Source: Eggerthellales bacterium UBA948 (lineage in GTDB: Bacteria > Actinomycetota > Coriobacteriia > Coriobacteriales > UBA8131). Taken from it: a stretch of 18,928 nt of DNA. The notes below the pieces were generated by a model, which worked only from the letters and a program-made list of their open reading frames with translations, did no database searches and had not been told where the DNA came from. Shown here piece by piece: positions 2,048 through 18,928 of this stretch; the stretch's first letter is position 1, and the number at the start of each line of letters is the position of its first letter. The stretch lies in contig DBCW01000034.1 of assembly GCA_002293265.1 (NCBI GenBank), positions 793-19,720 of the forward strand, in the 5' to 3' direction. The position numbers were made by a program, and so were the translations under genes.

Positions 2048-3547
2048 TTACATATTTTGAATGATGTCCAAAATGTCAGTGCGCCGATGTACTTCAAGTT
2101 TTTCTAAAATGTTATGTGTGTGTACTTTGACTGTATTGGGTGAGAGGTGCAATTTTTCAGCTATCCATTCTGTAGAAAAGCTCTGCGCAATCAAGGTGAG
2201 TATCTCCACTTCGCGCGCGGTGAGATCGTGTCGTTCGCCTAAGTCGGCGCTGCGATTTGCCAGGGCTTCAAAGTAGGCAGCTTGGCAACTTGTAAAGTCT
2301 CCATCCCACTGCGCCGCAGCTGCTTCACTGGCAACGCTTGCGGCACCTACAGCTTTTTTGTCATTTTTGCTAATCTGAAAGGAAAAACCTCCATGCCTGC
2401 TGCTGAGTGCAGTAAAAATGGTTAGGCCAATAATCAATACCCAAATAGCATATGGCTCCTCAGCTAAGGACTCCGGTACATACAAAACATAGATATGTCC
2501 GGCAACGGTACCCAAACAGCAGCTTGCGGCACCAATGCCAAAGACGAAGGATACGAGATGAAAGACCGGTGTTTCAAAGCGGTGACCAATCTCGCACACC
2601 ATGATTGCGCAAAGCACCATCATCAGCATGAAGCTTACTGCTACCAACACTTCTCCAAAGAAATACTGCACCGTGAGCATCAATAGGCCTGCAATGAAGA
2701 TGGGTTGCAATGCCCAATAAAGATGCGATAGTACGAGGCGTTTGCGAGAAATTAATAATGAGACGAATAAAAGCAAGCCGGCAACTGCAAATCCAATAGA
2801 GCGCATGATGTTTTCTTGTAAGGCACTCTCTACAAAACCTGAGCTTACGAGGGCAAAAATGAATCCATAAATAGAAAATGTTGCTGCGGCACCCATTATG
2901 AGCCTAAACAGTCCCGAGCTACTGCGCATGGCACTTAGCGAAAAACGAGGGGGAGCTTTGTCCTTTTTGTAGCGCCTTTGCATCGTAAAGAAGTTTTGAT
3001 CCATATTCTCCAAAAACCAATAACTTAAAGATAGCGCAGCTGTAGAGATTACCGGCATTGATGCGGCTACGATTACAAAGGCCAAAAATGGTAGTAGCGA
3101 AGCTATGGCGATCAGTGCTGCAGCTACAAAAATGCCTGAGACGAGCTGATAAATATAGCGGGGTGCCTTTAGCAAGCTAAAGAGCTCCATCCATATTATC
3201 GTTAGCCATCCGTATTCTAGTCCCACGCAGATTGCACCTAATACCGCCAGAGGTGAGCCGGCAACAGCGATCTGGTCGTTATATGCAATCAAGAACATGC
3301 CGACAAACGCAAGCGGCATGAATGGTGGCTGAAAGCGTTTATTAACCGGGAATATGCGTTTGGAAAAAAGTAGGACAAACCCAAAGGCAGCAATAACTGC
3401 GGCTAGCATTGCAAATCTGCCTGCAAAGGAGAGGTTTGCTGTTGCGCAAAGAGCCAGCATCTTGAGTGCCAAAAAGAACCACGCATAAAAACATCCTAGT
3501 CCAAGTGCAATTGCAATATCAGCAAAACGTTGATACCTCTTATGCAT
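2048..3547 (-). CDS. Membrane-bound LuxR-family transcriptional regulator (about 11-12 TM helices plus HTH)
   Basis: Residues 1 to about 380 are almost entirely hydrophobic helices, roughly 11-12 membrane spans. A short hydrophilic linker follows, and residues 442-499 form a LuxR/GerE helix-turn-helix that begins LTAREVEILTLIAQ and contains LSPNTVKVHTHNILEKL. There is no receiver domain. This is the architecture of the large LuxR family of Eggerthella and relatives, in which a membrane sensor carries the DNA-binding domain and usually controls a neighbouring enzyme operon. Here it is divergent from the acyl-CoA dehydrogenase/Fix operon, the obvious target. I chose the ATG at 3547, which has GTGGAG three bases upstream, a short spacing. 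In-frame GTG (3556) and TTG (3559) are alternatives. Direct sensing of a substrate by the membrane part is inference. Confidence 0.88.
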   Translation of the reverse strand: MHKRYQRFADIAIALGLGCFYAWFFLALKMLALCATANLSFAGRFAMLAAVIAAFGFVLLFSKRIFPVNKRFQPPFMPLAFVGMFLIAYNDQIAVAGSPLAVLGAICVGLEYGWLTIIWMELFSLLKAPRYIYQLVSGIFVAAALIAIASLLPFLAFVIVAASMPVISTAALSLSYWFLENMDQNFFTMQRRYKKDKAPPRFSLSAMRSSSGLFRLIMGAAATFSIYGFIFALVSSGFVESALQENIMRSIGFAVAGLLLFVSLLISRKRLVLSHLYWALQPIFIAGLLMLTVQYFFGEVLVAVSFMLMMVLCAIMVCEIGHRFETPVFHLVSFVFGIGAASCCLGTVAGHIYVLYVPESLAEEPYAIWVLIIGLTIFTALSSRHGGFSFQISKNDKKAVGAASVASEAAAAQWDGDFTSCQAAYFEALANRSADLGERHDLTAREVEILTLIAQSFSTEWIAEKLHLSPNTVKVHTHNILEKLEVHRRTDILDIIQNM

Positions 3548-3685
3548 AGACTCCACCAATCCATAGAAGATGAACTTTGCTTGCTCATAACCACTTTGTT
3601 TTGGGTCGCAAAAGCAGACAAAGCAACTTAGCGATCAGCCCCCACCTTCATGATGGCAATAGATGTAGTTTTGAATCTAATTAAA

Positions 3686-3963: not shown

Positions 3964-5115
3964 ATGAGCCACTTTTTAAACGAGGATCAGCAGTTGATCG
4001 TAAATTCAGTGCGTGAATTCTGTCAGTCCCCAACCGTACAAAAGATGATTCAAGAGGAAAAAGCTGTTGGTGGGTTTCCGCATCAGAGTTGGAAAGCAGC
4101 AGCCGAACAAGGCTATATAGCCGCATACCTTCCGGAAGAATATGGTGGTATGGGCTACGATCATGTTACTTATTATTCAATATTTGAAGAGCTGTGCAAA
4201 AACAGCTATCCCTGCACCGGTCCGATATCAGGACACATTCTTGGTATTAAAGCCATCGAAGCTTGGGGCACGGATGAGCAGAAAAAAATGTTCCTTCCTC
4301 AACTTGGTAGTGGCGAAAAGATCTGCTGTGGTGCAGCAACCGATCCTGCGGGTGGTACGAATTTCTCCGAGTGGGGACTTACTGAGGAAGAAACCGAAGA
4401 CGGATGGATCCTCAACGGCACCAAGGTTATAACAACTAATGCCCACAACGCCGACTACAAAGTAGTGTTTGGTCGTCCGCAAAACGGAGCCAAATGGTAT
4501 GACCACTTTTACGTTATCCCTAAAGATGCAAAAGGCTTAGAGACCGGCGAGCAAGAGATGAAGCTTGTGCCGGATGGTTCTGACTGGGGCACAATGGTTC
4601 TAAAAGACGTTCATGTACCCAAGATATGCCGTTTTGAACGCGGTGACAAAGATGCCCTATGGCTTGGAACCTCTTATATGATGGTCGCTCTGCAAAGTCT
4701 GGTACTTGGCGAGGCCGGATTTATGTACGCATTTGGCTTTGCTACTCAGCGCTCACGCAGAGGTGGCAAGCTAATCGATCTGCAGACAGTAGCTCACAAG
4801 ATCGCCGACATGGCAATTCGCAACGAAGCCGGTCGCGGTCTGATCTATACTGCCGCGCGCATGTGGGACGAAGGTCGCAAAGAAGAGTGTAGCCGTCTTG
4901 CGTCTATGGCAAAAGCATTTATCTGTGAAGCCGCAAATAAGAATCTACACGACGCTACAATCATCCACGGTGGTATCGGCAATACTATGCCGGCAACAGT
5001 AGGCGTGCTCTGGGCTGCTTCACTTCAACTTGAGCTGGCCGAGTTCCCTTGCGACATGCATCGTGACTTTGTTATTGAATCTTACGGTGTCGATCTTGAT
5101 TGGAAGACCCGATGA
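3964..5115 (+). CDS. Acyl-CoA dehydrogenase family flavoprotein
   Basis: This 383-residue protein has the normal length and order of an acyl-CoA dehydrogenase, which forms or reduces the alpha-beta double bond of an acyl-CoA using FAD and an electron-transfer flavoprotein. The N-terminal helical part carries PEEYGGMG at 57-64. The middle beta domain has the FAD/substrate loop CGAATDPAGGTNF at 122-134 and DGWILNGTK. The C-terminal helical domain has TQRSRRGG, DLQTVAHKIADM and IIHGGIG. The usual C-terminal YEGTSQIQR motif is replaced by AEFPCDMHR. Counting back from the conserved Arg places E360 where the catalytic Glu of short- and medium-chain enzymes sits, so a base may be kept in an unusual setting. 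No CoA ligase, CoA transferase or hydratase is adjacent, so the substrate is open. It overlaps the fixA gene by four bases and is probably its direct electron partner. Confidence 0.9.
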   Translation: MSHFLNEDQQLIVNSVREFCQSPTVQKMIQEEKAVGGFPHQSWKAAAEQGYIAAYLPEEYGGMGYDHVTYYSIFEELCKNSYPCTGPISGHILGIKAIEAWGTDEQKKMFLPQLGSGEKICCGAATDPAGGTNFSEWGLTEEETEDGWILNGTKVITTNAHNADYKVVFGRPQNGAKWYDHFYVIPKDAKGLETGEQEMKLVPDGSDWGTMVLKDVHVPKICRFERGDKDALWLGTSYMMVALQSLVLGEAGFMYAFGFATQRSRRGGKLIDLQTVAHKIADMAIRNEAGRGLIYTAARMWDEGRKEECSRLASMAKAFICEAANKNLHDATIIHGGIGNTMPATVGVLWAASLQLELAEFPCDMHRDFVIESYGVDLDWKTR

Positions 5116-5942
5116 GTGACACTGCAATGCAGCGCTATGTTGTCTGCTATAAGTGGGTGCTCGACGAAGCTGATATTAGAGTCTTGGATGATCTTAAGGT
5201 AGACATGACCCGAGCAAAAGGCAAAGTAAGTGACTTTGACCGCAGCGCCATTGAAGCAGCCATGCGAGCCGCAGAAGCTCAAGGAGCAGGCGAGTCTCAA
5301 GACAAAGCCCTTGAGGTACATGCGCTTACCTTTGGAGATGCTGAGGTGACCCGCTCGCTTAAAGATGCGCTTTCGCGCGGCCCTGCTGAAGGTTGGACAA
5401 TTGCCGGTGAAGCTGCAAAGACGGCTGACGGACGAGTGAGCGCTCAAGCGCTGGCAGCCGGAATAAAAGCTATCCCCAATGTTAGCTGCGTATTTGCCGC
5501 TGAAGGTGCAAGTGATACTTATGCTAGGCAGATTCCATCACGCATTGCTGCAATACTAGACTGGCCGTTGATATCTTCTGTCCTCACTTTAAAAATTGAA
5601 GGTGACGAACTTATCGCAACACGTAAGCTCGAAGACTGTTTACAAAATGTTCGCGTAACGCTTCCGGCTGTGGTGTCGGTGTTACCGGAAGACTATGAGC
5701 CACGCACACCCGGTTTAAAAGCTGTTATGGCAGCCGGTCGTAAGCCTACCCATGAGCTTGGATCAGCCGAGCTGGGATTTGATCCTAACGATGTTGCGTC
5801 ACCGATGCTTTCACCAAAGCGTTTAAACGTGAGCCAGATTGGTTACGCCGCAGCTCGCAAAAACATTATCCATAAAGGTTTGTCTGCTGATGAAGCGGCA
5901 CAGTCCGTTGCATCAGCACTCAGAAAGGAGGGCGTTGTCTAA
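5112..5942 (+). CDS. fixA: Electron transfer flavoprotein beta subunit (EtfB/FixA)
   Basis: This 276-residue protein has the EtfB fold. It starts with YVVCYKWVLDEADIRV, has a DFDRSAIEAAMRAAE segment where EtfB has its conserved Asp/Asn-Pro-Asp-Glu region, and ends with RKLEDCLQNVRVTLPAVVSV, EPRTPGLKAVMAAGRKP, a close match to the family. It pairs with the next gene product to form a flavin- and nucleotide-binding heterodimer. The ATG at 5112 overlaps the acyl-CoA dehydrogenase stop as ATGA, so translation is coupled; an upstream in-frame TTG at 5100 has no better RBS. The last codon overlaps the fixB ATG by one base. With fixC and fixX downstream it is better called FixA than a general housekeeping EtfB. 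Whether it binds the extra FAD needed for bifurcation cannot be decided by eye. Confidence 0.88.
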   Translation: MSDTAMQRYVVCYKWVLDEADIRVLDDLKVDMTRAKGKVSDFDRSAIEAAMRAAEAQGAGESQDKALEVHALTFGDAEVTRSLKDALSRGPAEGWTIAGEAAKTADGRVSAQALAAGIKAIPNVSCVFAAEGASDTYARQIPSRIAAILDWPLISSVLTLKIEGDELIATRKLEDCLQNVRVTLPAVVSVLPEDYEPRTPGLKAVMAAGRKPTHELGSAELGFDPNDVASPMLSPKRLNVSQIGYAAARKNIIHKGLSADEAAQSVASALRKEGVV

Positions 5943-6862
5943 TGGATACCGCTTATGTTTATAGCGAGAAACCTGTTTTGGCGGCACAGTTAGTAGGTTT
6001 GGCAAAGAGCTTTGAAGTGAAAGAGGTTTTAGCTATTGCTTTTGATGACGAATCATCTGCAGCACTATCAAATTGCGGAGCCGATGGCATAATTGAGCTT
6101 TCCGGAGATAGCGCAATGCCCGAAAACAACGCTCGTTCGCTCGCTTCGTGGTTGTCAGACGCTTTTGCTGTTGATCCCGGGCTACTAATAGTAGGTGCTA
6201 CTTCGATCGGACGTGATCTTTCAGCACGCGTAGCCGGATACTTAGACTGCGGCTTTTCCGGCGATATAATTTCTGCTGAACTTGCCGAAGACGATGCAAT
6301 AAGTACTACTCGCTCAGAGTACGGTGGCGCTGTAGTGCTTGCCGAAACACTTCCTTTGCCTGCGGTAATAACAGTGCCTGCGGGGCGCTTTGACGCCGCA
6401 TCAGGTGCCGCATCGATTATCGACAAAGGAACACTTGAGCCGGATACAAGAATTGAAGTTACCGGCACCACTCCGATCGTTAAAGAGGGCATAGACTTAA
6501 GTCGAGCCAAGGCTATTGTCGGAGTAGGCATGGGCTTTTCGGCTCGTGAAGATATTGCTTTGGCCGAGGATCTGGCAGCAGTGATAGATGCCGGTATCGG
6601 CTGCACCCGTGGTATTGCTGAGGAGCGCCACTGGTTGAGCACCGAGCAATATCTGGGATTGTCCGGGCTAACTGTTGCTCCGGATCTCTACGTTGCCGTA
6701 GGCATGTCCGGACAAGTTCAGCACTTAGCCGGTGTGCGCGACAGTAAAGTTATCGTTGCAATCAACAAAAACGAGGAAGCACCAATATTTAAAGCTGCGG
6801 ACTACGGCATTGTTGGTGACCTCTATGAAGTACTCCCCGCACTGACCGCAGCTCTTAAGTAA
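5942..6862 (+). CDS. fixB: Electron transfer flavoprotein alpha subunit (EtfA/FixB)
   Basis: This 306-residue EtfA has an N-terminal alpha/beta domain (about 1-180) containing LLIVGATSIGRDLSARVAGYL. Its C-terminal FAD-binding domain (about 187-300) has the hallmark strings GLSGLTVAPDLYVAVGMSG at 239-257, VQHLAG, AINKNEEAPIF at 273-283 and ADYGIVGDL at 286-294. It would carry electrons between the acyl-CoA dehydrogenase and FixC. AAAGGAGG at 5924-5931 precedes the ATG by ten bases and the start overlaps the fixA stop as TAATG. The gap to the alcohol dehydrogenase gene is short, so the run continues as one transcript. Confidence 0.92.
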   Translation: MDTAYVYSEKPVLAAQLVGLAKSFEVKEVLAIAFDDESSAALSNCGADGIIELSGDSAMPENNARSLASWLSDAFAVDPGLLIVGATSIGRDLSARVAGYLDCGFSGDIISAELAEDDAISTTRSEYGGAVVLAETLPLPAVITVPAGRFDAASGAASIIDKGTLEPDTRIEVTGTTPIVKEGIDLSRAKAIVGVGMGFSAREDIALAEDLAAVIDAGIGCTRGIAEERHWLSTEQYLGLSGLTVAPDLYVAVGMSGQVQHLAGVRDSKVIVAINKNEEAPIFKAADYGIVGDLYEVLPALTAALK

Positions 6863-6916
6863 GAAACCTATAGCAATTATTAAAAACGCCAAACAGGCGA
6901 GAGAATGGAGAATGAA

Positions 6917-7981
6917 ATGGAACAAAAGACCATGAAAGCCCTTGTATATCATGAGCCGGGCAAGATCAGCTTAGATGAGGTAGATGTACCTGTAATCAAA
7001 CAGCCAAAAGACGTTATCGGCAAAGTGACCATCAACGCCATCTGCACCAGCGATGTGCACGTAATGCACGGTTATTTGCCTATGGCAACACCACCTCTGA
7101 TTCTTGGACATGAGTTTTGTGTAGAAGCTATTGAAGCCGGTTCGGAGGCTAAGGACATTCAAGGCAACGATATCGTTATCGGCAAGCACTACTGCGTTCT
7201 TCCGGCAAGCTTTTGTGGCGAGTGCGATTTTTGCAAGGCCGGAAACATTGCCGGTTGTGTAAACGGTGGTACTTATGGCGTTATGCAAAATGGTTGTCAA
7301 GCTGAATATGTACGCATTCCTGATTCGCATAGCGGTATGCTCCCCATACCTGAAGGCATGACCGACAAGCAGATCGTGCTTTTAGGTGACATGTTGGCTA
7401 CTGCATGGTTTGGCATTGAAAACGCCAATGTTGAAGAGGGTCAGACAATAGCCGTTGTAGGACTTGGTCCTGTGGGAATGTGTGCCTGCGAGCTGCTCAC
7501 AAATTACTTTGGCTGTAAAGTTGTTGGTCTTACACGCAGTCAAGAGAAGTTGGATCTTGCTCTGAAACAAGGTGTTATTGTTGCCGGTATTAGTCCTGCA
7601 ACTGATGACGTTGCTGCTCGTGTAGCTGAACTAACCGAAGGCAAAGGATTCTCAGCCGTTATTGAGACTCCGGGCAATCAATCCTCCATGGATCTGGCTT
7701 GCTCAGTTGTTGGATATCAGGGCATAGTTTCAACTATCGCCATATTTGGCAGTGCCATCACCATCCCTATGAATGCGCTTTGCTACAAAAACGCCACTAT
7801 AAAGATGGGCGTACAACAGCTTCATGGTATTGCCGAGATGCTTGAAGCCATCATGACCGGCAAGATCAGTACCGAGTGGATGCTTACCCATTCCAGCTCG
7901 CTTGATGAGATCGTTAAAGGTTATGAGGTCTTTGGCGGCAGCGACACGCCGGATTGCATTAAGTGGGTCATCGAGGCCTAA
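6917..7981 (+). CDS. Zinc-dependent medium-chain alcohol dehydrogenase
   Basis: This 354-residue medium-chain dehydrogenase/reductase would oxidise an alcohol or reduce a ketone or aldehyde with NAD(P)(H). Catalytic zinc ligands are visible as C43 in ICTSDVHVMHG, the GHE motif at 64-66, and probably D158 in LLGDMLATAW. A structural zinc site is formed by C100, C103, C106 and C114. The Rossmann glycine motif is VVGLGPVG near 180-187. The CTSD-H and GDML features recall secondary alcohol dehydrogenases such as the clostridial isopropanol enzyme, but that group lacks the four-cysteine structural zinc site kept here. The ATG at 6917 is preferred because GGAG lies at 6908-6911; an in-frame ATG at 6905 would add four residues. 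It is followed by the decarboxylase-family gene, which could supply a ketone substrate (inference). Confidence 0.88.
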   Translation: MEQKTMKALVYHEPGKISLDEVDVPVIKQPKDVIGKVTINAICTSDVHVMHGYLPMATPPLILGHEFCVEAIEAGSEAKDIQGNDIVIGKHYCVLPASFCGECDFCKAGNIAGCVNGGTYGVMQNGCQAEYVRIPDSHSGMLPIPEGMTDKQIVLLGDMLATAWFGIENANVEEGQTIAVVGLGPVGMCACELLTNYFGCKVVGLTRSQEKLDLALKQGVIVAGISPATDDVAARVAELTEGKGFSAVIETPGNQSSMDLACSVVGYQGIVSTIAIFGSAITIPMNALCYKNATIKMGVQQLHGIAEMLEAIMTGKISTEWMLTHSSSLDEIVKGYEVFGGSDTPDCIKWVIEA

Positions 7982-7997
7982 AGGTGCAAGCGCTTTA

Positions 7998-8035
7998 GAG
8001 ATACCTGCTCTACCCGGTGCCTACCTGGGCATCTC
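7998..8035 (+). repeat. Weak stem-loop downstream of the alcohol dehydrogenase gene
   Basis: GAGAT at 7998-8002 pairs with ATCTC at 8031-8035, and CCCGG at 8013-8017 can pair with CTGGG at 8025-8029 with one G-U pair inside. It lies just upstream of the stronger hairpin at 8046-8083. It has no T-run. Confidence 0.3.
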
Positions 8036-8045
8036 CACAAAATAA

Positions 8046-8083
8046 AGCCAATCGGGCAGCTTGCTTATCACTGCCCGATGGCT
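8046..8083 (+). other. Strong intra-operon hairpin between alcohol dehydrogenase and decarboxylase genes
   Basis: AGCC (8046-8049) and ATCGGGCAG (8051-8059) pair with CTGCCCGAT (8071-8079) and GGCT (8080-8083), a 13-bp GC-rich stem interrupted only by a bulged A at 8050, with an 11-base loop. No T-run follows on the plus strand, so it is unlikely to be a simple intrinsic terminator. It may mark an mRNA processing or stabilising site that sets different levels for genes before and after it. The decarboxylase RBS follows at 8109-8113. Confidence 0.65.
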
Positions 8084-8119
8084 AATACATAACTAATCAA
8101 ATTTGAATAGGAGTTCATC

Positions 8120-8965
8120 ATGAGTAACTGTAGTTTTTTAAAGACACCAGAAGAGATGGCATGGGTTCAAGACGGAACCAAAAATATTCCGTGGATGAAT
8201 AATTGTGAAGGTCTTTACGCTGCTTGGGAGACCGATATGGAGACTTTGGCCAAATTGATTCCGGCTCCGCTAACACCGGTCATCCCATATGTCATTGCTT
8301 ATGTTGTTGAAGCTCGCAATCCCACTTTTTGCAATGCTTACAAAGAAGCTTGCGTTATGACTGTCGTTACCGATGGCGAAAAGATGGGCAATTACACCTT
8401 TGGCCTTTTGCTCACCGACAGCGATAACCCTGTACTTACAGGTCGTGAGGAATTGGGTATTCCCAAAAAGAACGCCGACCTTATCGACATTCGTCGTCTT
8501 GGTGACAAAGCCTACGCCACCGTAGATCGCATGGGTATTCGGGTTTTTGATCTGGAAGTTGAACTGGGTGATTACAATAACGAGGCCGGTGCTGCTGTAC
8601 TGGGCGGCAAGCCACTTGGTGAGGACACCGAGGGTATCTCGTTCTTCTATAAGTTTGATGTTAATCAAAATGCCAACTGTGACGTAGTCTTTAGCGATCT
8701 TCGTATGCTTGATGTGCGCATGGTCAGCAATCTTCACACTTGGGAGGCCGGTGCTGCCAGTATTGAACTTGGCCCATCGATCAATGACCCATGGGCAGAG
8801 CTTGTTGTTAAGCAACCTATCGGTGCTGCATGGACAATCTTTGACTTAGGCATTCTGGGCGCACAAAAGGTAACTCCGCTAGATATGGTGGATAAGGTAA
8901 TTCCGCACCTTATCGCCGGTCGTTACGATGCGTCCTTTGTTGGTAATCCTAATCAGATCCTTTAA
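8120..8965 (+). CDS. Acetoacetate decarboxylase family enzyme
   Basis: This 281-residue protein has the acetoacetate decarboxylase fold. The active-site signature GREELGIPKK at 108-117 contains the Lys pair: by comparison with the clostridial enzyme, K116 would form the Schiff base and K117 would depress its pKa. The acidic residue of YKEACV at 74-79 (E76) matches the conserved active-site Glu. Keeping all three argues for real decarboxylase or aldolase-type chemistry on a 3-oxo acid. The family also includes enzymes with other Schiff-base reactions, so acetoacetate itself is not established. AGGAG at 8109-8113 lies six bases before the ATG. No signal peptide is seen. Hairpins lie on both sides of the gene in the transcript. 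The preceding dehydrogenase could reduce its ketone product. Confidence 0.85.
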   Translation: MSNCSFLKTPEEMAWVQDGTKNIPWMNNCEGLYAAWETDMETLAKLIPAPLTPVIPYVIAYVVEARNPTFCNAYKEACVMTVVTDGEKMGNYTFGLLLTDSDNPVLTGREELGIPKKNADLIDIRRLGDKAYATVDRMGIRVFDLEVELGDYNNEAGAAVLGGKPLGEDTEGISFFYKFDVNQNANCDVVFSDLRMLDVRMVSNLHTWEAGAASIELGPSINDPWAELVVKQPIGAAWTIFDLGILGAQKVTPLDMVDKVIPHLIAGRYDASFVGNPNQIL

Positions 8966-8979
8966 TCAATCAGAATTCT

Positions 8980-9013
8980 TGGCGTTGGCGCTCTGTTTTG
9001 GGTGCCAACGTCA
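8980..9013 (+). other. Strong intra-operon hairpin between decarboxylase and fixC genes
   Basis: Bases 8980-8991 pair with 9002-9013 as a 12-bp stem with two G-U pairs; its core is CGTTGGC against GCCAACG, and the loop is ten bases. Only a broken AT stretch follows, not a T-run. Together with the hairpin at 8046-8083 it brackets the decarboxylase gene, suggesting the message is cut or stabilised around it. Confidence 0.6.
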
Positions 9014-9065
9014 TTATTTGGATAAAGTGTGACTTCTCTAGTCGTCTTAATTGCGAGGTGTAATC

Positions 9066-10352
9066 ATGTCTGACTTTCAAGTAATAGTGGTCGGCTCGGG
9101 CTGCGCAGGTAGTGTCGCAGCATATGAGCTTGCCAAAGCGGGTAAGAGCGTGCTTGTCATCGAACGAGGTGCAAGTGCCGGTGCCAAGAACATGACCGGT
9201 GGCAGGATATACGTCCACTCTTTGCGCGAGGTCTTCCAAGACATGGTTGAGCACGCGCCGCTGGAGCGCAGGATAACTCACGAGCGCATCTCGATGCTCA
9301 CTAACGATGCTGCATTTACCATGGACTTTAGCTCGAGGTCCATGCTTGAAGCCGGGCAAGATTCTTACTCGGTACTGCGCGGAAACCTTGATGTGTGGCT
9401 GGCTGATCAGGCCGAGCAAGCCGGAGCAGAATACATTTACGGCATCGCAGTGGAAAGCTTGGTCAAGCAAGATGGAAAAGTCTGTGGAGTAAGGGCAGGA
9501 GAAGATGAGATCACAGCCGATGTGGTCATCTTAGCCGATGGTGTGAACTCTCTTTTAACTGAGCAGGCAGTTGGTTTTGCCAGACCTTCTCCGTCACACA
9601 TGGCGGTAGGTATCAAGCAAGTCATCGAGTTGCCTGGTAGCGAAATTAGCTCGCGCATGCTCTGCGCCGAAGGCGATGGAGCAGCTTGGCTTTTTGCCGG
9701 CGATGCTACAAAAGGCCTTCCCGGCGGTGGTTTTATCTACACCAATCGAGATTCCGTCTCGCTTGGTCTTGTAGCAACTATTTCGGCTATGAGGGACGGC
9801 AAAGAGACCATCTGCGGACTTTTGGAAAGTTTTAAAGCCCATCCGGCAGTAGCTCCGCTGATAGCTGGTGGTAAGGTTGTGGAGCATTCCGGGCACATGG
9901 TACCGGAAGGTGGTTATCGCATGATGCCGGAGCTTATCGGCAATGGCGTGATGTTAGCCGGAGAGTGTGCAATGATGTGCGTTAACCTTGGCTACATGGT
10001 GCGCGGCATGGACTACGCAGTGGCAGCAGGCATGCACGCAGGGCGCTGCGCCGCTAAAGCCATTGATGCCGAAAATACCGATAAGGCCGGTTTGGAGAGT
10101 TATGTACAAGCTCTCGAAAACAGTTTTGTACTCAAAGACCTACGTCAGTTTCAGCTGTTTCCGGAGTTCATGGAAAGCAATCACCGCATCTACAATGAGT
10201 ATCCGGAACTGATTCGTGATGCCATGCAGGCGATGTTTATAGTCGATGGCACCCCAATGCCGCGACTTAAAAACAGCATGTTGCCCCTACTTCGCAAAGT
10301 GGGATTGATGGCATTACTCAAAGATGCCCGAAAGGGGATGAAAGCATTATGA
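9066..10352 (+). CDS. fixC: FixC-type flavoprotein (electron transfer flavoprotein-quinone oxidoreductase family)
   Basis: This 428-residue protein begins with a dinucleotide-binding motif, VIVVGSGCAGSVAA (glycines at 10, 12, 15), with the acidic end of the second strand in VIERG at 31-35. It carries the FixC hallmark KNMTGGRIYVHSL at 41-53, close to the NVTGG-GHSL of known FixC proteins. The C-terminal FAD contact region reads GVMLAGECAMMCVN followed by LGYMVRGMDYAVAAGMHAG. It would take electrons from FixAB and pass them to quinone with FixX. The ATG at 9066 has GAGGTG at 9055-9060; a TTG at 9051 is in frame but overlaps that RBS. The fixX gene overlaps its stop by four bases. A hairpin lies just upstream of the RBS. 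Confidence 0.92.
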   Translation: MSDFQVIVVGSGCAGSVAAYELAKAGKSVLVIERGASAGAKNMTGGRIYVHSLREVFQDMVEHAPLERRITHERISMLTNDAAFTMDFSSRSMLEAGQDSYSVLRGNLDVWLADQAEQAGAEYIYGIAVESLVKQDGKVCGVRAGEDEITADVVILADGVNSLLTEQAVGFARPSPSHMAVGIKQVIELPGSEISSRMLCAEGDGAAWLFAGDATKGLPGGGFIYTNRDSVSLGLVATISAMRDGKETICGLLESFKAHPAVAPLIAGGKVVEHSGHMVPEGGYRMMPELIGNGVMLAGECAMMCVNLGYMVRGMDYAVAAGMHAGRCAAKAIDAENTDKAGLESYVQALENSFVLKDLRQFQLFPEFMESNHRIYNEYPELIRDAMQAMFIVDGTPMPRLKNSMLPLLRKVGLMALLKDARKGMKAL

Positions 10353-10657
10353 GCGCAAGCACAGAAAACTACGTTAACTACGTAAACATGGATGCCTATT
10401 TGGGACTAAACCGTTTTGAAGTGGATGAAGGTAATCCACACATAGAGCTTGTTGATGACATAGATATACTTGAGTTCGAAAAGTTGATGCGTGTATGCCC
10501 GGCCGCCCTTTATCGACTGGACGAAAATAGTTCCCCAAGCTTCGACTACGCCGGTTGCCTGGAATGTGGCACCTGCAGAATAGCCTGTGGTGACACGATC
10601 ATTAAAAAGTGGAAAAACCCGGAACCCATCATGGGCATCCAATACCGCTATGGGTAA
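10349..10657 (+). CDS. fixX: FixX-type ferredoxin-like protein
   Basis: This 102-residue iron-sulfur protein is the usual partner of FixC. C50 lies in the CPAALY motif, and C70, C73, C76 and C80 lie in DYAGCLECGTCRIAC, the diagnostic FixX string. The C-terminal GIQYRYG also matches the family, where the protein ends in a similar Tyr-Arg-Tyr/Phe-Gly tail. Its length is close to that of known FixX proteins. It would hold an Fe-S cluster that relays electrons within the FixCX complex. The ATG overlaps the fixC stop as ATGA, so the pair is translationally coupled. It is the last gene of the operon; no clear intrinsic terminator follows. Confidence 0.92.
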   Translation: MSASTENYVNYVNMDAYLGLNRFEVDEGNPHIELVDDIDILEFEKLMRVCPAALYRLDENSSPSFDYAGCLECGTCRIACGDTIIKKWKNPEPIMGIQYRYG

Positions 10658-10853: not shown

Positions 10854-11006
10854 TGTCCGAAAACTATGTATCTAACCCAGATTGTCATTCCCGCGCAGGC
10901 GGGAATCCATAACAAACGGCAAATGTTATATTGAGTAAATAGATTCCCGCCTACGCGGGAATGACAGAGGGATATGTGGGAATGACAGAGGGAGACTTTT
11001 CGGACA
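10854..11006. mobile_element. MITE-like element: terminal inverted repeats enclosing nested REP-type palindromes
   Basis: The outer ends are exact 10-bp inverted repeats, TGTCCGAAAA at 10854-10863 and its reverse complement at 10997-11006. Inside, a 24-bp sequence at 10884-10907 is repeated inverted at 10942-10965 with one mismatch. Each 24-bp arm is itself a palindrome built on ATTCCCGC and GCGGGAAT. Such GTCATTCCCGCG units are widespread REP-like extragenic repeats in bacteria. No transposase is encoded in the 153 bp, and I see no clear target-site duplication. It is either a non-autonomous element or a REP doublet (BIME-like) bounded by chance repeats; the inner palindromes are certain, the element boundaries less so. 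Confidence 0.65.
10957..10993. repeat. Tandem 16-bp direct repeat inside the palindromic element
   Basis: GGGAATGACAGAGGGA occurs at 10957-10972 and exactly again at 10978-10993, a period of 21 bases. The second copy looks like a partial duplication of the right palindrome arm, so that arm has grown or slipped relative to the left one. Confidence 0.75.
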
Positions 11007-11011
11007 CCGTG

Positions 11012-11032
11012 TGGAGCGGCAGACGGGACTCG
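11012..11032 (-). repeat. Duplicate of the tRNA-Gly 3' end
   Basis: These 21 bases are identical to 11191-11211, the 3' end of the tRNA-Gly gene including the encoded CCA, acceptor strand and part of the T arm. The copies are in the same orientation, 179 bases apart, and the match stops sharply at both ends. It is not a functional tRNA. It may be a remnant att-like duplication or the edge of a tRNA-derived repeat. Confidence 0.8.
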
Positions 11033-11190: not shown

Positions 11191-11266
11191 TGGAGCGGCA
11201 GACGGGACTCGAACCCGCAACAATCAGCTTGGAAGGCTGATGCTCTACCAATTGAACTACTGCCGC
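11191..11266 (-). tRNA. tRNA-Gly (anticodon UCC)
   Basis: The minus strand folds as a full cloverleaf. The acceptor stem is GCGGCAG with CTGCCGC, the D stem GTTC/GAGC, the anticodon stem TCAGC/GCTGA with loop CTTCCAA (anticodon TCC at 11231-11233), a 5-base variable loop, and the T stem GCGGG/CCCGT with loop TTCGAGT. The discriminator base is T and CCA is encoded (11191-11193). The promoter is at 11287-11315. Its 3' end is duplicated downstream at 11012-11032. Confidence 0.97.
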
Positions 11267-11546: not shown

Positions 11547-13997
11547 ATGCAAGCGGAAAAGACAAAGAGGGGGATGTCGCGTCGTAGTTTTATTGCGGCT
11601 ATGGCAGTTGCCGGCGGAGCCGCACTTGCGGGTAATGTTGCCTGTTCACCACAGGCTGAGACACCTGCGCAGAGCACTACCGCCCAAGCCCCTGAGGAGC
11701 AGATCTATCAAGGTCTGTGTCGCGGTAACTGCGGTGGCGGTTGTTACATGAACGTTCATGTAAGAGAGGGAAAGATTGTAAAGACCTCGGTCAAGGACGC
11801 ACCCGAAAATCCACTGGAGAAGCGACTTTGCCAACGTGGTCTCACCCATGCCCAGCGAGTATATGCGCCTGAGCGCTTAAAGTACCCGATGCGTCGAGTT
11901 GAGGGAACAGAGCGCGGAGCCGGGGAGTGGGAGCAGATATCTTGGGAAGAAGCGATTAAATACGTCGGCGACAAATGGAAGAGTTATGTTGACGAGTTTG
12001 GTGGCTCCAGTATTGGTGTGCCGCTTGGAGGCGGCGTCTACACCAACGATCAATTCTATACCACACGTTTTCAAAGCGTTCTTGGTATGACCAAGCTCAG
12101 TGGTCAATATGACCAAAACGGCCTGGTCATGGGAACTCTAACAGTAACTCGCGGCCCAATGTTGCACGGTAATGGTCCGCTTGATCTCCTAAACGCAAAG
12201 AACATTCTCGTTTGGGGTTGTAACGCTACAGTAAGTGAGCAGCCAAGATGGCCAATTATTCAAGCTGCCATGGAAAAAGGTGCCAATGTCATCGTCATTG
12301 ACCCAATCTATCAAGGCGTAGCTCAAAGAGCTAATGAGTGGATTCCCATCCGTGCCGCATCTGACGGCGCAATGGCTTTGGCGATGATGAACGTTATCGT
12401 CAGCGAAGGACTCACCGACCCTGAATACTTGAAGAAAGGCACTGTCGCACCATTTTTGGTAAAGGAAAGCGATGGCAAATACTTACGCATGAGCGACCTG
12501 GGAGTTGAGCCCACAGAAGGCCCACCGGATCGAACCGGAAAGCCTACGGTCATTGACCCAATTGTGGCTCGTAGTGCTGATGGTACCAATGACGACAAAG
12601 ACAAAATTGCCGACCCGGTGCTCGAGGGGAGCTTTGAGGTCAACGGCATTGCCGTTAAAACAGCTTACCAAAAACTGCTCGACCGAATTGCGGAATACAC
12701 ACCAGAGGGTGTAGCAGAGATGTGTGACGTTCCGGCAGAGAAAATCAAAGAACTTGCTCGCACTTTTGCTGATGGCCCAAGCGTACTCTACCTCCAGTTT
12801 GGTACAGATCACTGGACAAATGGAGCCGAAACCTTCCACTCCATCATCACCCTTGGCATGATTACGGGCAACATGTCTAAATCGGGTGCGGGAATCCAAG
12901 GTGGTATGGGTGGCAGCGCAATCGGTTCTTACGGCGTAAACCTAGCCGGTGGCATGTCCGGTGAAGGATTTAAATACGGTATCACAGCTTCTTGGGAAAA
13001 CTTGCCTGACATCATCAAGAACAAAGCTAACGGTGCAGTGCCCATCAATCTTAAGAGTATCCTTATTGAATACAACAATCCACTCTCCAATGCGCCGGGC
13101 AGAGCAGAGATCATGGATTCGCTGAAAGAAATCGAGCTCATTGTCTGTATGGACTCCGTAATGACAGAGTCAGCCCAATACAGCGATGTCATCTTGCCAA
13201 CCACCCATTGGTTTGAGATGAATACTTTCACTGCTATGCAAGTACCTTGGTATCGTGTAAATGAAAAGGCCGTCGAGCCGGCATTCGAGGCTAAGTGCGA
13301 TATAGAAGTCATCAAAATGATCGCCGATCATATGGGCTATGGAGACAAAATGATGACTGAGGATGAATGGTACGAGCTCCTGCTTACAAACGATGTCGCT
13401 AAAGGACTTGGAGTTACTTGGGAGTCACTCAAGAAAGACAAGATGGTTCGCATCATGCCGGATGATTACATCTTCTATCCCGACTACAAGTATCCTTCGG
13501 CAACAGGACGAGCAGAGTTCTACTTTGAAACTCTTCAGCCAAACGACAATTATGGGCAGCAGTTAGATCATGCAACCTGGTCACTTCCGCATTGGCAGCC
13601 ACCGGTTGAGGCCTGGTATGAAAATGAGATATTTAAGAAGTATCCGCTAAACCTCATGTCGCATAGAGACAGGTTTAAGACCCACACCATCTTTGCGCTC
13701 TGCCCATGGTTAGAAGAGCTTAGACCGGAGCCAATACTTTATATGAACCCACAGGATGCCGCCGCTCGCGGAATTGAGAACGAAGACTATGCGCGAGCTT
13801 GGAATGACCGTGGCTCCGTAGTTATGAAAGTGCACCTTAGCAGTGGCAATAGACCGGGAGTGGTTACCACTCAACACACCTGGTACAAGCAAAGCTACAA
13901 AGAAGGACACTATTCAGACCTGACATCTCGCGCTATGGGTAAGTTTATTGCTGCAGGATGTTTCTATGACACACTTTGCGAAGTTGAGAAGGTATAG
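11547..13997 (+). CDS. Tat-exported molybdopterin oxidoreductase, DMSO reductase family catalytic subunit
   Basis: This 816-residue protein has a twin-arginine signal (SRRSFI at 11-16, then a hydrophobic stretch, Cys at 33 as a possible imperfect lipobox). A [4Fe-4S] site at C58, C62, C66 and C95 follows, then the bis-molybdopterin guanine dinucleotide domains, with NILVWGCNATVSEQP near 219-233, VIVIDPIYQGVAQRANEWIPIRAASDGAMALAM near 248-280, and SATGRAEFY in the C-terminal half. It acts outside the membrane or at its face, reducing or hydroxylating/dehydroxylating an unknown substrate. Residues 186-197, where DMSO reductase relatives usually place a Ser or Cys metal ligand, contain neither, with D189 the nearest candidate. 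GGAGG at 11538-11542 precedes the ATG. Downstream are its electron-transfer, chaperone and membrane partners. The group includes reductases for sulfoxides and N-oxides and the Eggerthella catechol dehydroxylases; substrate cannot be assigned. Confidence 0.9.
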   Translation: MQAEKTKRGMSRRSFIAAMAVAGGAALAGNVACSPQAETPAQSTTAQAPEEQIYQGLCRGNCGGGCYMNVHVREGKIVKTSVKDAPENPLEKRLCQRGLTHAQRVYAPERLKYPMRRVEGTERGAGEWEQISWEEAIKYVGDKWKSYVDEFGGSSIGVPLGGGVYTNDQFYTTRFQSVLGMTKLSGQYDQNGLVMGTLTVTRGPMLHGNGPLDLLNAKNILVWGCNATVSEQPRWPIIQAAMEKGANVIVIDPIYQGVAQRANEWIPIRAASDGAMALAMMNVIVSEGLTDPEYLKKGTVAPFLVKESDGKYLRMSDLGVEPTEGPPDRTGKPTVIDPIVARSADGTNDDKDKIADPVLEGSFEVNGIAVKTAYQKLLDRIAEYTPEGVAEMCDVPAEKIKELARTFADGPSVLYLQFGTDHWTNGAETFHSIITLGMITGNMSKSGAGIQGGMGGSAIGSYGVNLAGGMSGEGFKYGITASWENLPDIIKNKANGAVPINLKSILIEYNNPLSNAPGRAEIMDSLKEIELIVCMDSVMTESAQYSDVILPTTHWFEMNTFTAMQVPWYRVNEKAVEPAFEAKCDIEVIKMIADHMGYGDKMMTEDEWYELLLTNDVAKGLGVTWESLKKDKMVRIMPDDYIFYPDYKYPSATGRAEFYFETLQPNDNYGQQLDHATWSLPHWQPPVEAWYENEIFKKYPLNLMSHRDRFKTHTIFALCPWLEELRPEPILYMNPQDAAARGIENEDYARAWNDRGSVVMKVHLSSGNRPGVVTTQHTWYKQSYKEGHYSDLTSRAMGKFIAAGCFYDTLCEVEKV

Positions 13998-14009
13998 GGA
14001 GGAGTCGAC

Positions 14010-14627
14010 ATGCGTTATGTAATGGCAATCAATACAACCAAATGCATCGGCTGCCACAGCTGTAGTGTAGCCTGCAAATCAAATAACAACCTCCCGAACA
14101 CCAAATGGTATAACCGGGTAGAAACAGATGGAGCCGAGGGCATGGATACGGTGCGAGGCACCTATCCAAACGACTTATATATGAGCTTTATGCCCATCGC
14201 TTGTCAGCATTGTGACAATCCGGCTTGCAAGAGTGTGTGTCCTGTTGAGGCAATCAGTCAGCGTGAAGACGGCATCATCACTCAAGACAATGAAGTCTGC
14301 ATTGGCTGTCAGCTTTGCCTGCAAGCCTGCCCCTACAATGCTCGTGTATTTAACGAAAGTCAGCTAGAGTACGTGGTTGACTTCCCGTTGGGTGATTGGG
14401 ACGCTCCTGCACACACGCCGCTAACCGCTGAGAAGTGCACGTTTTGCACACACAGAATTGACCGCGGTGACATGCCGGCTTGTATGGAGTTTTGTCCGGC
14501 CAGCGCACGTGTTTGGGGCGATATCGACGATCCAAACAGTGAAGTAAGCAAGTACGTCGCAGGAAAATCAACGTATAAGCATTTAGAGTCTGAGGGAACT
14601 CAACCCTCGACAATATACGTAAAGTAG
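14010..14627 (+). CDS. Four-cluster 4Fe-4S ferredoxin subunit (DmsB/NrfC-like)
   Basis: This 205-residue protein is the electron-transfer subunit of the molybdoenzyme. Sixteen cysteines form four cluster motifs: C12, C15, C18, C22; C65, C68, C73, C77; C97, C100, C103, C107; and C143, C146, C158, C162. Clusters swap ligands across the usual paired arrangement of this family, and all positions are intact, including the Cys-Pro ends. There is no signal peptide; it would be carried out by the Tat signal of the catalytic subunit. GGAGGAG at 13998-14004 lies five bases before the ATG, and the gap to the catalytic gene is 12 bases. A very strong hairpin follows its stop. Confidence 0.94.
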   Translation: MRYVMAINTTKCIGCHSCSVACKSNNNLPNTKWYNRVETDGAEGMDTVRGTYPNDLYMSFMPIACQHCDNPACKSVCPVEAISQREDGIITQDNEVCIGCQLCLQACPYNARVFNESQLEYVVDFPLGDWDAPAHTPLTAEKCTFCTHRIDRGDMPACMEFCPASARVWGDIDDPNSEVSKYVAGKSTYKHLESEGTQPSTIYVK

Positions 14628-14641
14628 CATTTACATGACCG

Positions 14642-14681
14642 TTTCAGGCTCTTGAAGTGCACAAGCTTCAAGAGCCTGAAA
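14642..14681 (+). other. Perfect 16-bp hairpin between ferredoxin and chaperone genes
   Basis: TTTCAGGCTCTTGAAG at 14642-14657 pairs perfectly with 14666-14681 around an 8-base loop. The transcript downstream is A-rich with no T-run, so termination in the classical way is doubtful. The position, after the two structural subunits and before the chaperone and membrane genes, fits a stability or attenuation element that makes more catalytic and ferredoxin subunit than chaperone. Confidence 0.75.
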
Positions 14682-14715
14682 GCACAAATAGGCAAAAAGT
14701 CCTTTGGAGTAAAGC

Positions 14716-15438
14716 ATGACTTATGATACTTCCCCAGATCGCATGAACGCTATTGCTGATTTCTATCAACTAATGGCGATAATGTTTCGCCTGCCGCACG
14801 ACACGATGGTCGAAGGCTTAGTTAATGGAGATGTAGTGTCCGGGATCAAAGAGATGTCTGATGAAATAGGCTTTACAAACCAACAGTTATCTCGTATTGA
14901 AAAGGAACTATCGGTGATCGAGGGGCAAGCTAAGGAAGGTAAAATAACGCTTACCTTACTTCGCCAAGCTTATACAAAAGCCTTCACCCACCCCAAAAAG
15001 CCGTTGATCTTTCCATATGAGAGTCAATTCTTGTTTTGGGAGGCAAATCCCGATTCAAGTTACGACTTAGCACCACGGCTTTTTGTCAGTGATGCCGCGC
15101 TTGACACCGAGCGATGCTACAAAAAAGCCGGCCTTAAGCGATCAGAAGACAAAAATTTTCCCGGCGATTACTTACCTACAGAACTGGAATTCCTCGGACT
15201 TCTTTACGACCATATGGCGAAGATATCCGCGTCTTCTACAAAAACTGAAGGAGATGCCAGCGTCGTATGGCAGCTGATTAGGGAGTTTGATTATTATCAT
15301 CTAAAAAAATGGGGAGTCGATTTCTTCAAAAAGTGCATTGCACTTGACTTTAACCCAACGTATACAAGCCTAGCGATAATAGCGGCGATCTTTATCGAAG
15401 AGATGTTGTCACAAACAGACGGCTGGTCACCTGCGTAA
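14716..15438 (+). CDS. TorD/DmsD-family molybdoenzyme maturation chaperone
   Basis: This 240-residue, largely helical protein has the family signature PTELEFLGLLYDHM at 154-167, preceded by a PYES segment at 100-103 and the linker region typical of TorD-like proteins. Such chaperones bind the Tat signal and apoenzyme of a molybdoenzyme, hold back export until the cofactor is inserted, and act in the cytoplasm. The length is slightly above the usual 190-210. TTTGGAG ends six bases before the ATG at 14716. The partner is evidently the catalytic subunit encoded upstream. Its position after a strong hairpin suggests lower expression than the structural subunits. Confidence 0.88.
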   Translation: MTYDTSPDRMNAIADFYQLMAIMFRLPHDTMVEGLVNGDVVSGIKEMSDEIGFTNQQLSRIEKELSVIEGQAKEGKITLTLLRQAYTKAFTHPKKPLIFPYESQFLFWEANPDSSYDLAPRLFVSDAALDTERCYKKAGLKRSEDKNFPGDYLPTELEFLGLLYDHMAKISASSTKTEGDASVVWQLIREFDYYHLKKWGVDFFKKCIALDFNPTYTSLAIIAAIFIEEMLSQTDGWSPA

Positions 15439-15473
15439 AATCGGCACTTCCAAAAAATAGAGATTGGTACATC

Positions 15474-16184
15474 ATGAGCTTTATCATTTCACATATCGTC
15501 GTCATTGCCCTTAGCGTAGTTTTGCGCAAACCTATCAAACGGTTTCCAATTTTATTTTATGCCTTGGCTGCTCTGATCAGCTTCGCCGGCATCTACTTCA
15601 CTTTGCAGCCAAACCCAAGCGAGATCGTACGTGTTTTGGTCTTTGCTGTTCAGAAAGGTCATGTTGGGCTTTCCTTGTTTGCTCTGGTGATGTTTGTTGG
15701 AGTTTTTGACAAAGGCTCTTCGGTTAGGCGGATATTTAACCCCATACGCGCTGAGCTTTCTATAATGGGATGCATTCTTATCATGGCTCATCTGGTGCCA
15801 TACCTCAGCAATTATTTGAGTATGGCTGCAAATCTCTTGTCTCTCAGGGTCAATATCTTGGTTGCGCTTTGTTTAGCCATGGTGATGCTGGTGCTACTCA
15901 TTTTGCTCACGGTAACATCGTTTAATGTATTAAAAGCCAAAATGAGCGCCGGCACTTGGAAGAAGGTGCAAGTTTTAGCTTATCCGTTCTTTACCTTGGC
16001 TTATTTCCATCTGCTGGGATACTTGATTGTGCCGGTCATGGGTGGTTCCGGTACTGCTTTAGTAAATCTCACTATATACACAATTCTTTTTGTCGCTTAT
16101 GCTGCATTGCGCGTGCGCAAGGCAATGGCGGATAAAAAAGCCGATGAGCAAGCAAGTGAGGGCATCAAATCAGCACTTCCTTAA
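15474..16184 (+). CDS. MsrQ/ferric-reductase-like haem membrane protein
   Basis: This 236-residue protein has about six to seven membrane helices (roughly 1-17, 26-44, 61-79, 97-117, 127-150, 166-185, 194-213). It carries histidines inside or at the edge of helices, H63 in KGHVGL, H106 in MAHLVPY and H179 in AYFHLLGYL, and the motif PIRAELSIMG at 90-99. This pattern matches the ferric-reductase-like transmembrane family (YedZ/MsrQ), which binds haem b and passes quinol electrons across the membrane. It would serve as the membrane anchor or electron donor of the molybdoenzyme in place of a DmsC or NrfD type subunit. The RBS is weak. The assignment rests on motifs seen by eye and the operon context. 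Confidence 0.7.
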   Translation: MSFIISHIVVIALSVVLRKPIKRFPILFYALAALISFAGIYFTLQPNPSEIVRVLVFAVQKGHVGLSLFALVMFVGVFDKGSSVRRIFNPIRAELSIMGCILIMAHLVPYLSNYLSMAANLLSLRVNILVALCLAMVMLVLLILLTVTSFNVLKAKMSAGTWKKVQVLAYPFFTLAYFHLLGYLIVPVMGGSGTALVNLTIYTILFVAYAALRVRKAMADKKADEQASEGIKSALP

Positions 16185-18843: not shown

Positions 18844-18928
18844 GATTTTCACCCACAAACATTGTTGTTAACTGGTTACATCAAATGATAGGGCATGCAG
18901 GTCAACTGTGTTATAGTGGTACGGCTAT
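18844..18928. promoter_or_regulatory. Upstream region of the MalT-like regulator, right window edge
   Basis: On the minus strand TATAAC at 18915-18910 could be a -10 whose -35 lies beyond the window. On the plus strand TATAGT at 18912-18917 overlaps it and could serve a divergent gene starting beyond the edge. A GCATGC palindrome lies between the two. No -35 partner is convincing. Confidence 0.25.

Follow-up and report, generated by a model that had tools for sequence, protein, structure and literature searches.

The window examined here, an 18,928-nucleotide stretch spanning positions 793 to 19720 of a 19,720-base contig (DBCW01000034.1) of Eggerthellales bacterium UBA948, carries a run of seven co-directional genes in which an acyl-CoA dehydrogenase (ACAD)-family gene, a complete fixA, fixB, fixC and fixX set, a zinc alcohol dehydrogenase (ADH) gene and an acetoacetate decarboxylase (ADC)-family gene stand together. 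The run is a genuine module, conserved in part, and its chemistry is probably not that proposed in a preliminary description of this DNA. The reading that we favour, tentatively, is an inducible, CoA-independent module for enone saturation that would work like the CLA-DH, CLA-DC and CLA-ER enzymes of Lactiplantibacillus, with the ACAD-family protein and the Fix proteins acting as the enone reductase.

The scheme that follows is an inference as regards the reactions of the module and the order and direction in which they run, the path and donor of the electrons, and the regulation. An NAD(P)-dependent dehydrogenase (the zinc ADH in the window; a short-chain dehydrogenase/reductase (SDR) or a member of the 3-hydroxyacyl-CoA dehydrogenase (3HCDH) family in relatives) would convert a hydroxyl group into a ketone or the reverse. 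Held as a Schiff base by the active-site lysine of the ADC-family protein, the ketone would have a double bond moved into conjugation, or lose water, to give an enone, whose C=C bond would be reduced by the ACAD-family flavoenzyme with electrons from FixAB and FixCX. A LuxR-type regulator with 12 transmembrane (TM) segments would turn the module genes on upon exposure to the substrate, for which an unsaturated alcohol or ketone (an oxo-lipid, a steroid, a plant ketone or other) is the candidate class. This reading is preferred because an ACAD gene and a dehydrogenase gene recur with the ADC gene (at 9/9 and 7/8 loci, respectively), because diagnostic residues of both the ADC and the ACAD proteins are replaced, because no thiolase was detected in the genomes of the ADC loci, and because CLA-DC provides a precedent.

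Gene organization

All seven genes lie on the forward strand at 3964–10657, and reading frames together with Pfam and NCBIfam matches bear out the boundaries and overlaps given in the preliminary description. The ACAD-family gene (3964–5115; Pfam ACAD N, M and C domains) overlaps fixA (5112–5942, ATG start at 5112; electron transfer flavoprotein (ETF) beta-like) by 4 bases, and fixA overlaps fixB (5942–6862; ETF alpha-like) by 1 base, both Fix assignments resting on Pfam and NCBIfam. The zinc ADH of the secondary-alcohol/threonine dehydrogenase type (6905–7981; Pfam ADH_N and ADH_zinc_N) and the ADC-family gene (8120–8965) come next, followed by fixC (9066–10352), which encodes a flavoprotein of the YdiS/FixC group (NF007450, 474.7 bits, cut-off 466) and overlaps the ferredoxin-like fixX (10349–10657; NF011993, 101.9 bits, below the cut-off of 166) by 4 bases. 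The remaining junctions have gaps of 42, 138 and 100 bases in 5'-to-3' order, the last one upstream of fixC.

Within this last gap, a hairpin of 14 pairs whose U tail is weak (8980–9013, forward strand) separates the ADC gene from fixCX. The stretch 8966–9050 has a folding energy of -31.9 kcal/mol (z -6.24), and 0/200 shuffles were equally stable. The terminator scan overall found 8 sites against 8.8 expected and hence no excess, so that the hairpin is notable by its strength alone. Because its U tail is weak, three functions are possible, namely an attenuator, a weak terminator or a processing site, and a single seven-gene transcript is therefore not assured.

The preliminary description noted that the seven genes include none for a CoA ligase, CoA transferase, hydratase or thiolase; across the window, too, none of these families came up among the scanned proteins, the Pfam/NCBIfam scan having covered all frames except 214–792 and 16228–18858, which were judged by eye to be a sigma factor and a LuxR regulator. 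Since the window ends with its contig and the 2.9 Mb assembly is 83% complete, CoA enzymes may be encoded elsewhere in this genome; the search beyond the window for CoA-pathway enzymes covered thiolase alone.

Conservation of the gene set

Nine loci with a stand-alone ADC gene, from eight genomes, were compared: those of the window, G009 (a Coriobacteriia metagenome-assembled genome), G163 (Slackia equolifaciens), G210, G660, G702, G703 (two loci) and G704. Homologues of the neighbouring genes were sought in the stretches fetched around each ADC locus. An ACAD gene lies near the ADC gene at 9/9 loci, within about 3 kb or less at eight of them and at about 8 kb in G009, where the two genes nevertheless belong to one co-directional run. 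FixAB genes are found at 5/9 loci. FixCX genes were seen at two of these five Fix loci; the G702 locus and one G703 locus stop at contig ends before FixCX could be assessed, and G210 lacks FixCX locally and has FixC homologues elsewhere in its genome. In addition, two metagenomic pairs of ADC and ACAD sequences have longest contigs of equal size within each pair (11,152 and 18,805 bases), which suggests that they share the same linkage.

A dehydrogenase is present at seven of the eight assessable loci and comes from three unrelated families: the zinc ADH in the window, the 3HCDH family in G702 and twice in G009, and an SDR in G163, G660, G703 and G704 (the last two identified by tblastn only). 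The dehydrogenase step thus appears to be conserved even though the protein is not. A homologue of the zinc ADH was found at none of the other eight ADC loci within the fetched stretches (E 1e-6; in part E 1e-8), and this enzyme is accordingly rejected as a conserved member of the module. The expectation that the whole set would recur in relatives is borne out for the linkage of ADC to ACAD and, in five loci, to fixAB, and fails for the zinc ADH. The linkage is real, and its conserved core is an ACAD, an ADC and a dehydrogenase of one family or another, to which FixAB and a LuxR regulator are added in a subset that includes the window; this statement is based on counts of loci, without a formal probability.

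The G009 run (L013 7746–19989 and L051 682–1842) also holds two subunits of the 2-hydroxyacyl-CoA dehydratase type with a BcrA/BadF-type activator, an ATPase of the ParA/ArsA type that begins with a His-rich stretch, and a small CdhC-domain protein. In G703 and G704 (L094, L095) a second, divergent ADC-family gene and a gene for a small membrane protein lie near the ACAD, SDR and ADC genes.

The ACAD-family protein

The window protein has the three-domain ACAD architecture and keeps glutamate at the catalytic position. The module ACADs fall into two types: type I (window, G210, G702, G703 twice and G704; 6/9) has Glu at the catalytic position of the short-chain acyl-CoA dehydrogenase (SCAD) type, and type II (G009, G163 and G660; 3/9) has Gly there. 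Aligned by eye, type II has a Glu at the position that we take to be the isovaleryl-CoA dehydrogenase site.

The residues that handle CoA are a different matter. In the human SCAD, as described in excerpts from PMC13027082, D269 contacts the pantetheine arm of CoA and S161 and A163 are near the acyl chain; on the 2vig alignment used to check this numbering, these residues fall on LDMGR and GSDA. At the D269 position all nine module ACADs have Gly, Ala or Thr, compared with Asp, Glu or Asn in 14/14 controls, the arginine three residues further on is found in 0/9 compared with 14/14, and the serine at S161 in 0/9 compared with 13/14. The controls comprise E. coli CaiA and YdiO and proteins from 12 of the 26 loci L025–L050, the other 14 having been dropped before counting (eight by a length filter and six on the reading of strand or frame). 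The same division appears among the best 120 of 574 database matches, the window's own protein included: none of the 61 close relatives has Asp, Glu or Asn at D269 or the arginine, and five have Ser at S161; among five intermediate relatives there is one Asn at D269 and no arginine; the 54 distant relatives have an acid or Asn at D269 in 50 cases and the arginine in 51. ACAD matches of any kind occur in 86/297 genomes of the order. The wider search in the phylum found matches in 193/396 genomes and does not extend the module, as no match listed besides the window exceeds 35% identity.

The simplest reading of these replacements, which were judged at the level of sequence only, is an ACAD branch without the usual binding of a CoA thioester, and the window's lack of CoA-activating genes is consistent with this. 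The preliminary description had assigned to this protein the oxidation or reduction of acyl-CoA, a role that is not supported given the missing pantetheine-contact aspartate and neighbouring arginine. The same residues bear on an alternative modelled on carnitine metabolism, in which the ACAD-family protein and FixABCX reduce an unusual enoyl-CoA, a CoA ligase or transferase is encoded elsewhere, and the ADC protein and dehydrogenase serve a side branch. The 2-hydroxyacyl-CoA dehydratase-type genes in the G009 run and the resemblance of FixABCX to the cai-associated fix and ydi sets of E. coli, which adjoin CoA ligase or transferase genes, speak for it. The replacement of the pantetheine contacts in all nine proteins speaks against it, as does the fact that neither a CoA ligase nor a CoA transferase was noticed at any of the nine loci, of which the window and G009 were annotated systematically, and we consider this alternative unlikely. 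A variant with carnitine dehydrogenase followed by decarboxylation was rejected, the 3HCDH-family proteins of G702 and G009 matching carnitine dehydrogenase models weakly and NF006143 over its cut-off.

The ADC-family protein

The window protein belongs to a clade that looks rare. When 5.8 billion clustered proteins were searched with a profile, 30 rows resulted, 28 of them with at least 342 bits; scoring was confined to the 7997 candidates with the most shared words. Matches are found in 12/297 genomes of the order, four of them stand-alone (that of the window among them) and eight inside open frames of 955–1108 residues, these eight genomes all belonging to one other family. They are present in 6/138 genomes of the Slackia family and in 1/33 of the window's own family, which is the window's own genome; the phylum gave matches in 29/396 genomes, mostly weak and partial. 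A scan of contigs with the single protein as query found no relative, and one with an alignment as query found two. The 20 plasmid records matched by tblastn were all below 60% identity, with no Lactobacillus among the matches listed.

One of the eight long frames was scanned (L016 5034–7892) and encodes a BaiCD/FadH-like flavoenzyme fused to an ADC domain (428.5 bits against the BaiCD model, below its cut-off of 825). This fusion provides, in the same bacterial order, a second link of the ADC domain to C=C redox chemistry. It resembles the module in tying an ADC domain to a flavoenzyme of a C=C reducing type and differs from it in that the flavoenzyme is of the old yellow enzyme type and that both parts form a single polypeptide.

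A predicted structure of the window protein confirms the ADC fold, at a level that cannot separate a decarboxylase from an isomerase. The Lys115–Lys116 Schiff-base pair and Glu76 are kept in 32/32 aligned members, and the canonical Arg29 and Glu61 are replaced in all of them, by Cys (29), Glu (2) or Ser (1) at position 29 and by Tyr at position 61. The positions were taken from the 3bh2 alignment, both residues belonging to the active site of canonical ADC. The count covers the 32 sequences of alignment A2; P0001 (a copy of the window protein), P0012, P0029, P0030 and the fused L017 were left out. Counted separately, the ADC proteins of G703 (C43) and G704 have Met and Tyr at positions 29 and 61, and in the second ADC-like protein of G704 these positions are Thr and Ser, with Glu76 missing too. 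The clade thus shares its fold and Schiff-base lysine pair with the acetoacetate decarboxylases of the Clostridium and Chromobacterium type and differs from them in the replacement of Arg29 and Glu61 throughout the aligned members. We propose that the window protein is a Schiff-base ketone isomerase or dehydratase.

These observations bear directly on the earlier scheme, in which the ACAD-family protein and FixABCX oxidise or reduce an acyl-CoA, the ADC protein decarboxylates a 3-oxo acid and the ADH turns the resulting ketone into a secondary alcohol. The ADC fold and lysine pair are indeed present, the ADH resembles isopropanol-type secondary alcohol dehydrogenases among others (its nearest solved structures by sequence are 5yln and 4cpd, followed by isopropanol dehydrogenases among others), and the 3HCDH-family enzymes of G702 and G009 would yield a product of the 3-oxo type. 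Decarboxylation is nevertheless not supported by the active site, no thiolase over the cut-off was found in the eight genomes of the ADC loci (0/8, compared with 13/14 control genomes), no CoA-activating gene was recognised among the scanned window proteins and the ACAD-family protein is without the CoA contacts, all of which makes this scheme improbable. An acetone–isopropanol pathway, considered for the likeness of the ADH to isopropanol dehydrogenases, likewise loses weight, given that no thiolase was found and given the active site of the ADC protein.

Another possibility is that the ADC-family protein is an aldolase-dehydratase, which would make or break a C–C bond to give the enone that the ACAD-family protein then reduces. 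Its nearest folds include Swit_4259 and a Streptomyces aldolase-dehydratase whose product is a dienone, both of which, going by the titles of their structure entries, presumably have activities other than decarboxylation. We regard this as quite improbable.

Fix proteins and electron flow

FixA and FixB of the window are 49–52% and 50–54% identical to those of the four other Fix loci, and the FixX of G009 has 37% identity (tblastn). Identities to the carnitine-linked fix and ydi sets of E. coli are 31–32% for FixA, 36% for FixB, 48–50% for FixC (50% to FixC, 48% to YdiS) and 46–55% for FixX (55% to YdiT). The statement that FixABCX is known from nitrogen fixation and carnitine metabolism is correct and incomplete, since E. 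coli ydiO with ydiQRST is another set that combines an ACAD with FixABCX. Both caiA with fixABCX and ydiO with ydiQRST resemble the window in placing an ACAD-family enzyme beside FixABCX. Unlike the window, however, they adjoin CoA ligase or transferase genes and have no ADC or zinc ADH among their annotated neighbours, and CaiA and YdiO have Asp or Glu and Arg at the positions that are replaced in the window ACAD.

Coupling to ferredoxin, as previously suggested, is not indicated. Bifurcating group 2 Etf proteins carry, close to the bifurcating FAD, the motifs RXGV, GXXSPTXV and RPXFGG, according to excerpts from PMC10734219, and FixX is described with two [4Fe-4S] clusters in those from PMC6085437. 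With the motifs assigned to the Etf subunits by alignment, the window FixA keeps only SP of GXXSPTXV, FixB has RSEYGG in place of RPXFGG, and the five cysteines of FixX suffice for one [4Fe-4S] cluster rather than two. Since FixB retains the Arg of RPXFGG, bifurcation to ferredoxin may be kept as an option.

The electrons might also flow in the other direction, with the ACAD-family protein setting a double bond next to the ketone and FixABCX passing electrons to menaquinone and perhaps to the neighbouring molybdoenzyme. The window FixC belongs to the YdiS type, for which the E. coli annotation is putative ETF–quinone oxidoreductase, the catalytic Glu position is kept in the window ACAD, and a molybdopterin oxidoreductase set lies downstream at 11547–16184. 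On the other hand, FixCX was seen at two of the five Fix loci (two others being cut by contig ends), and homologues of the molybdoenzyme set were found at none of the other ADC loci within the fetched stretches, so that we see little likelihood of this oxidative direction.

The LuxR-type regulator

Divergent from the module, at 2048–3559 on the reverse strand, is a gene for a LuxR-type regulator with about 12 membrane helices predicted by a simple hydropathy scan. Its C-terminal LuxR helix-turn-helix (GerE) domain and about 12 hydrophobic segments fit the 12-TM LuxR proteins of Coriobacteriia, which have 10–12 such segments N-terminally. Homologues with 25–28% identity occur at the four other Fix-containing ADC loci, so that 5/5 Fix loci have one, divergent from the ACAD gene at four and at the far end of the run in G009. 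Excerpts from PMC9734109 report that 12-TM LuxR proteins switch on catechol dehydroxylases when the substrates of these enzymes are supplied and that one E. lenta strain has 83 membrane LuxR proteins. The window resembles these Eggerthella lenta operons in having a divergent membrane-spanning LuxR gene by putatively inducible redox enzymes and differs from the tested examples described there, which control catechol dehydroxylases. By analogy, the type of regulator suggests an externally supplied inducer.

Comparison with the CLA system and weighing of the enone-saturation reading

In Lactiplantibacillus, CLA-DH makes an oxo fatty acid, CLA-DC shifts its double bond so that it becomes conjugated, and CLA-ER reduces the resulting enone, as described in excerpts from PMC11719350, PMC13365329 and PMC9241672; the first two present CLA-DC as an ADC-family double-bond isomerase with a 10-oxo fatty acid as substrate. 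As far as these excerpts go, the window and the CLA-HY/CLA-DH/CLA-DC/CLA-ER system of Lactiplantibacillus plantarum are alike in outline, each having an alcohol–ketone dehydrogenase, an ADC-family protein and a C=C reducing flavoenzyme. The flavoenzyme of the latter is CLA-ER; the window instead has the ACAD and Fix proteins, with a zinc ADH as the dehydrogenase. The window does not have homologues of all four CLA enzymes, the dehydrogenase and flavoenzyme being of other families and the hydratase not found. The likeness is one of kind, and with oleate hydratase not found in the window assembly, membership in the CLA system is not claimed. A fatty-acid route identical to that of Lactiplantibacillus was lowered on the distribution of this hydratase given below.

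A number of points weigh against the enone-saturation reading. We know of no ACAD-family reductase of free enones, and the replaced CoA-contact residues could instead mean an altered CoA or carrier-bound substrate. The resemblance to CLA-DC is one of protein family, and oleate hydratase (PF06100), the first enzyme of the CLA route, is found in one of ten genomes (G009) and not in the window assembly, with 1/14 controls over the cut-off. CoA chemistry is suggested by the 2-hydroxyacyl-CoA dehydratase genes within the G009 run, and by the match of the G702 and G009 dehydrogenases over the cut-off to NF006143, a family named for CoA substrates. The linkage has exceptions as well: the ACAD gene of G704 is on the strand opposite to the ADC gene, the stretch fetched around the G210 locus has no dehydrogenase, and the combination with the zinc ADH was seen once. 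Furthermore, the presence of the LuxR regulator is weak evidence, since 12-TM LuxR genes are abundant, and the completeness of the window genome is 83%.

The preliminary description did not recognise the combination as a described pathway, and this holds for the open-licence papers searched: they gave no description of an ADC with an ACAD and FixABCX, or of an ADC with an Eggerthella gene cluster and a reductase, and among the papers listed by looser searches none presents this set in its title or the opening of its abstract.

Neighbouring features

Beyond the regulator gene, on the side away from the module, 214–2032 holds the apparent sigma factor judged by eye, followed by an RsgI-like anti-sigma factor with PepSY domains. 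Downstream of fixX, a palindrome occurs in two copies that face each other, attcccgcgcaggcgggaat and attcccgcctacgcgggaat, at 10880–10970, before a tRNA-Gly gene; the copies resemble dispersed extragenic repeats. The 3' end of this tRNA-Gly gene (11191–11266, reverse strand) is present twice, as a 21-base direct repeat at 11012–11032 and 11191–11211 with a spacing of 179 bases, which is what integration into a tRNA gene might leave. The set at 11547–16184, recognised by Pfam and NCBIfam, is separate from the module and encodes a molybdopterin oxidoreductase with an iron-sulphur subunit, a TorD-like chaperone and a ferric-reductase-like membrane protein, together an unassigned reductase of respiratory type. 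The frame beside it (16228–18858) looks, by eye and hydropathy, like a LuxR regulator without membrane helices.

Implications

Ketone isomerisation followed by enone saturation is chemistry of a known kind; what is possibly new is a CoA-free role for a branch of the ACAD family. In its fullest form, which is rather doubtful, the proposal is that this branch gave up CoA and became a FixABCX-driven reductase of free enones working with an isomerase of the decarboxylase fold, giving Coriobacteriia an electron acceptor in the form of a dietary or host ketone. If the enone-saturation reading is right, it would give a role to an "acetoacetate decarboxylase" in bacteria where the search for thiolase found none, extend the acyl-CoA dehydrogenase family by a CoA-free branch and provide a further metabolic role for FixABCX. 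Slackia and its relatives would be predicted to hydrogenate an unsaturated ketone or alcohol, and the linked regulator would be usable for the discovery of the substrate by reporter screening.

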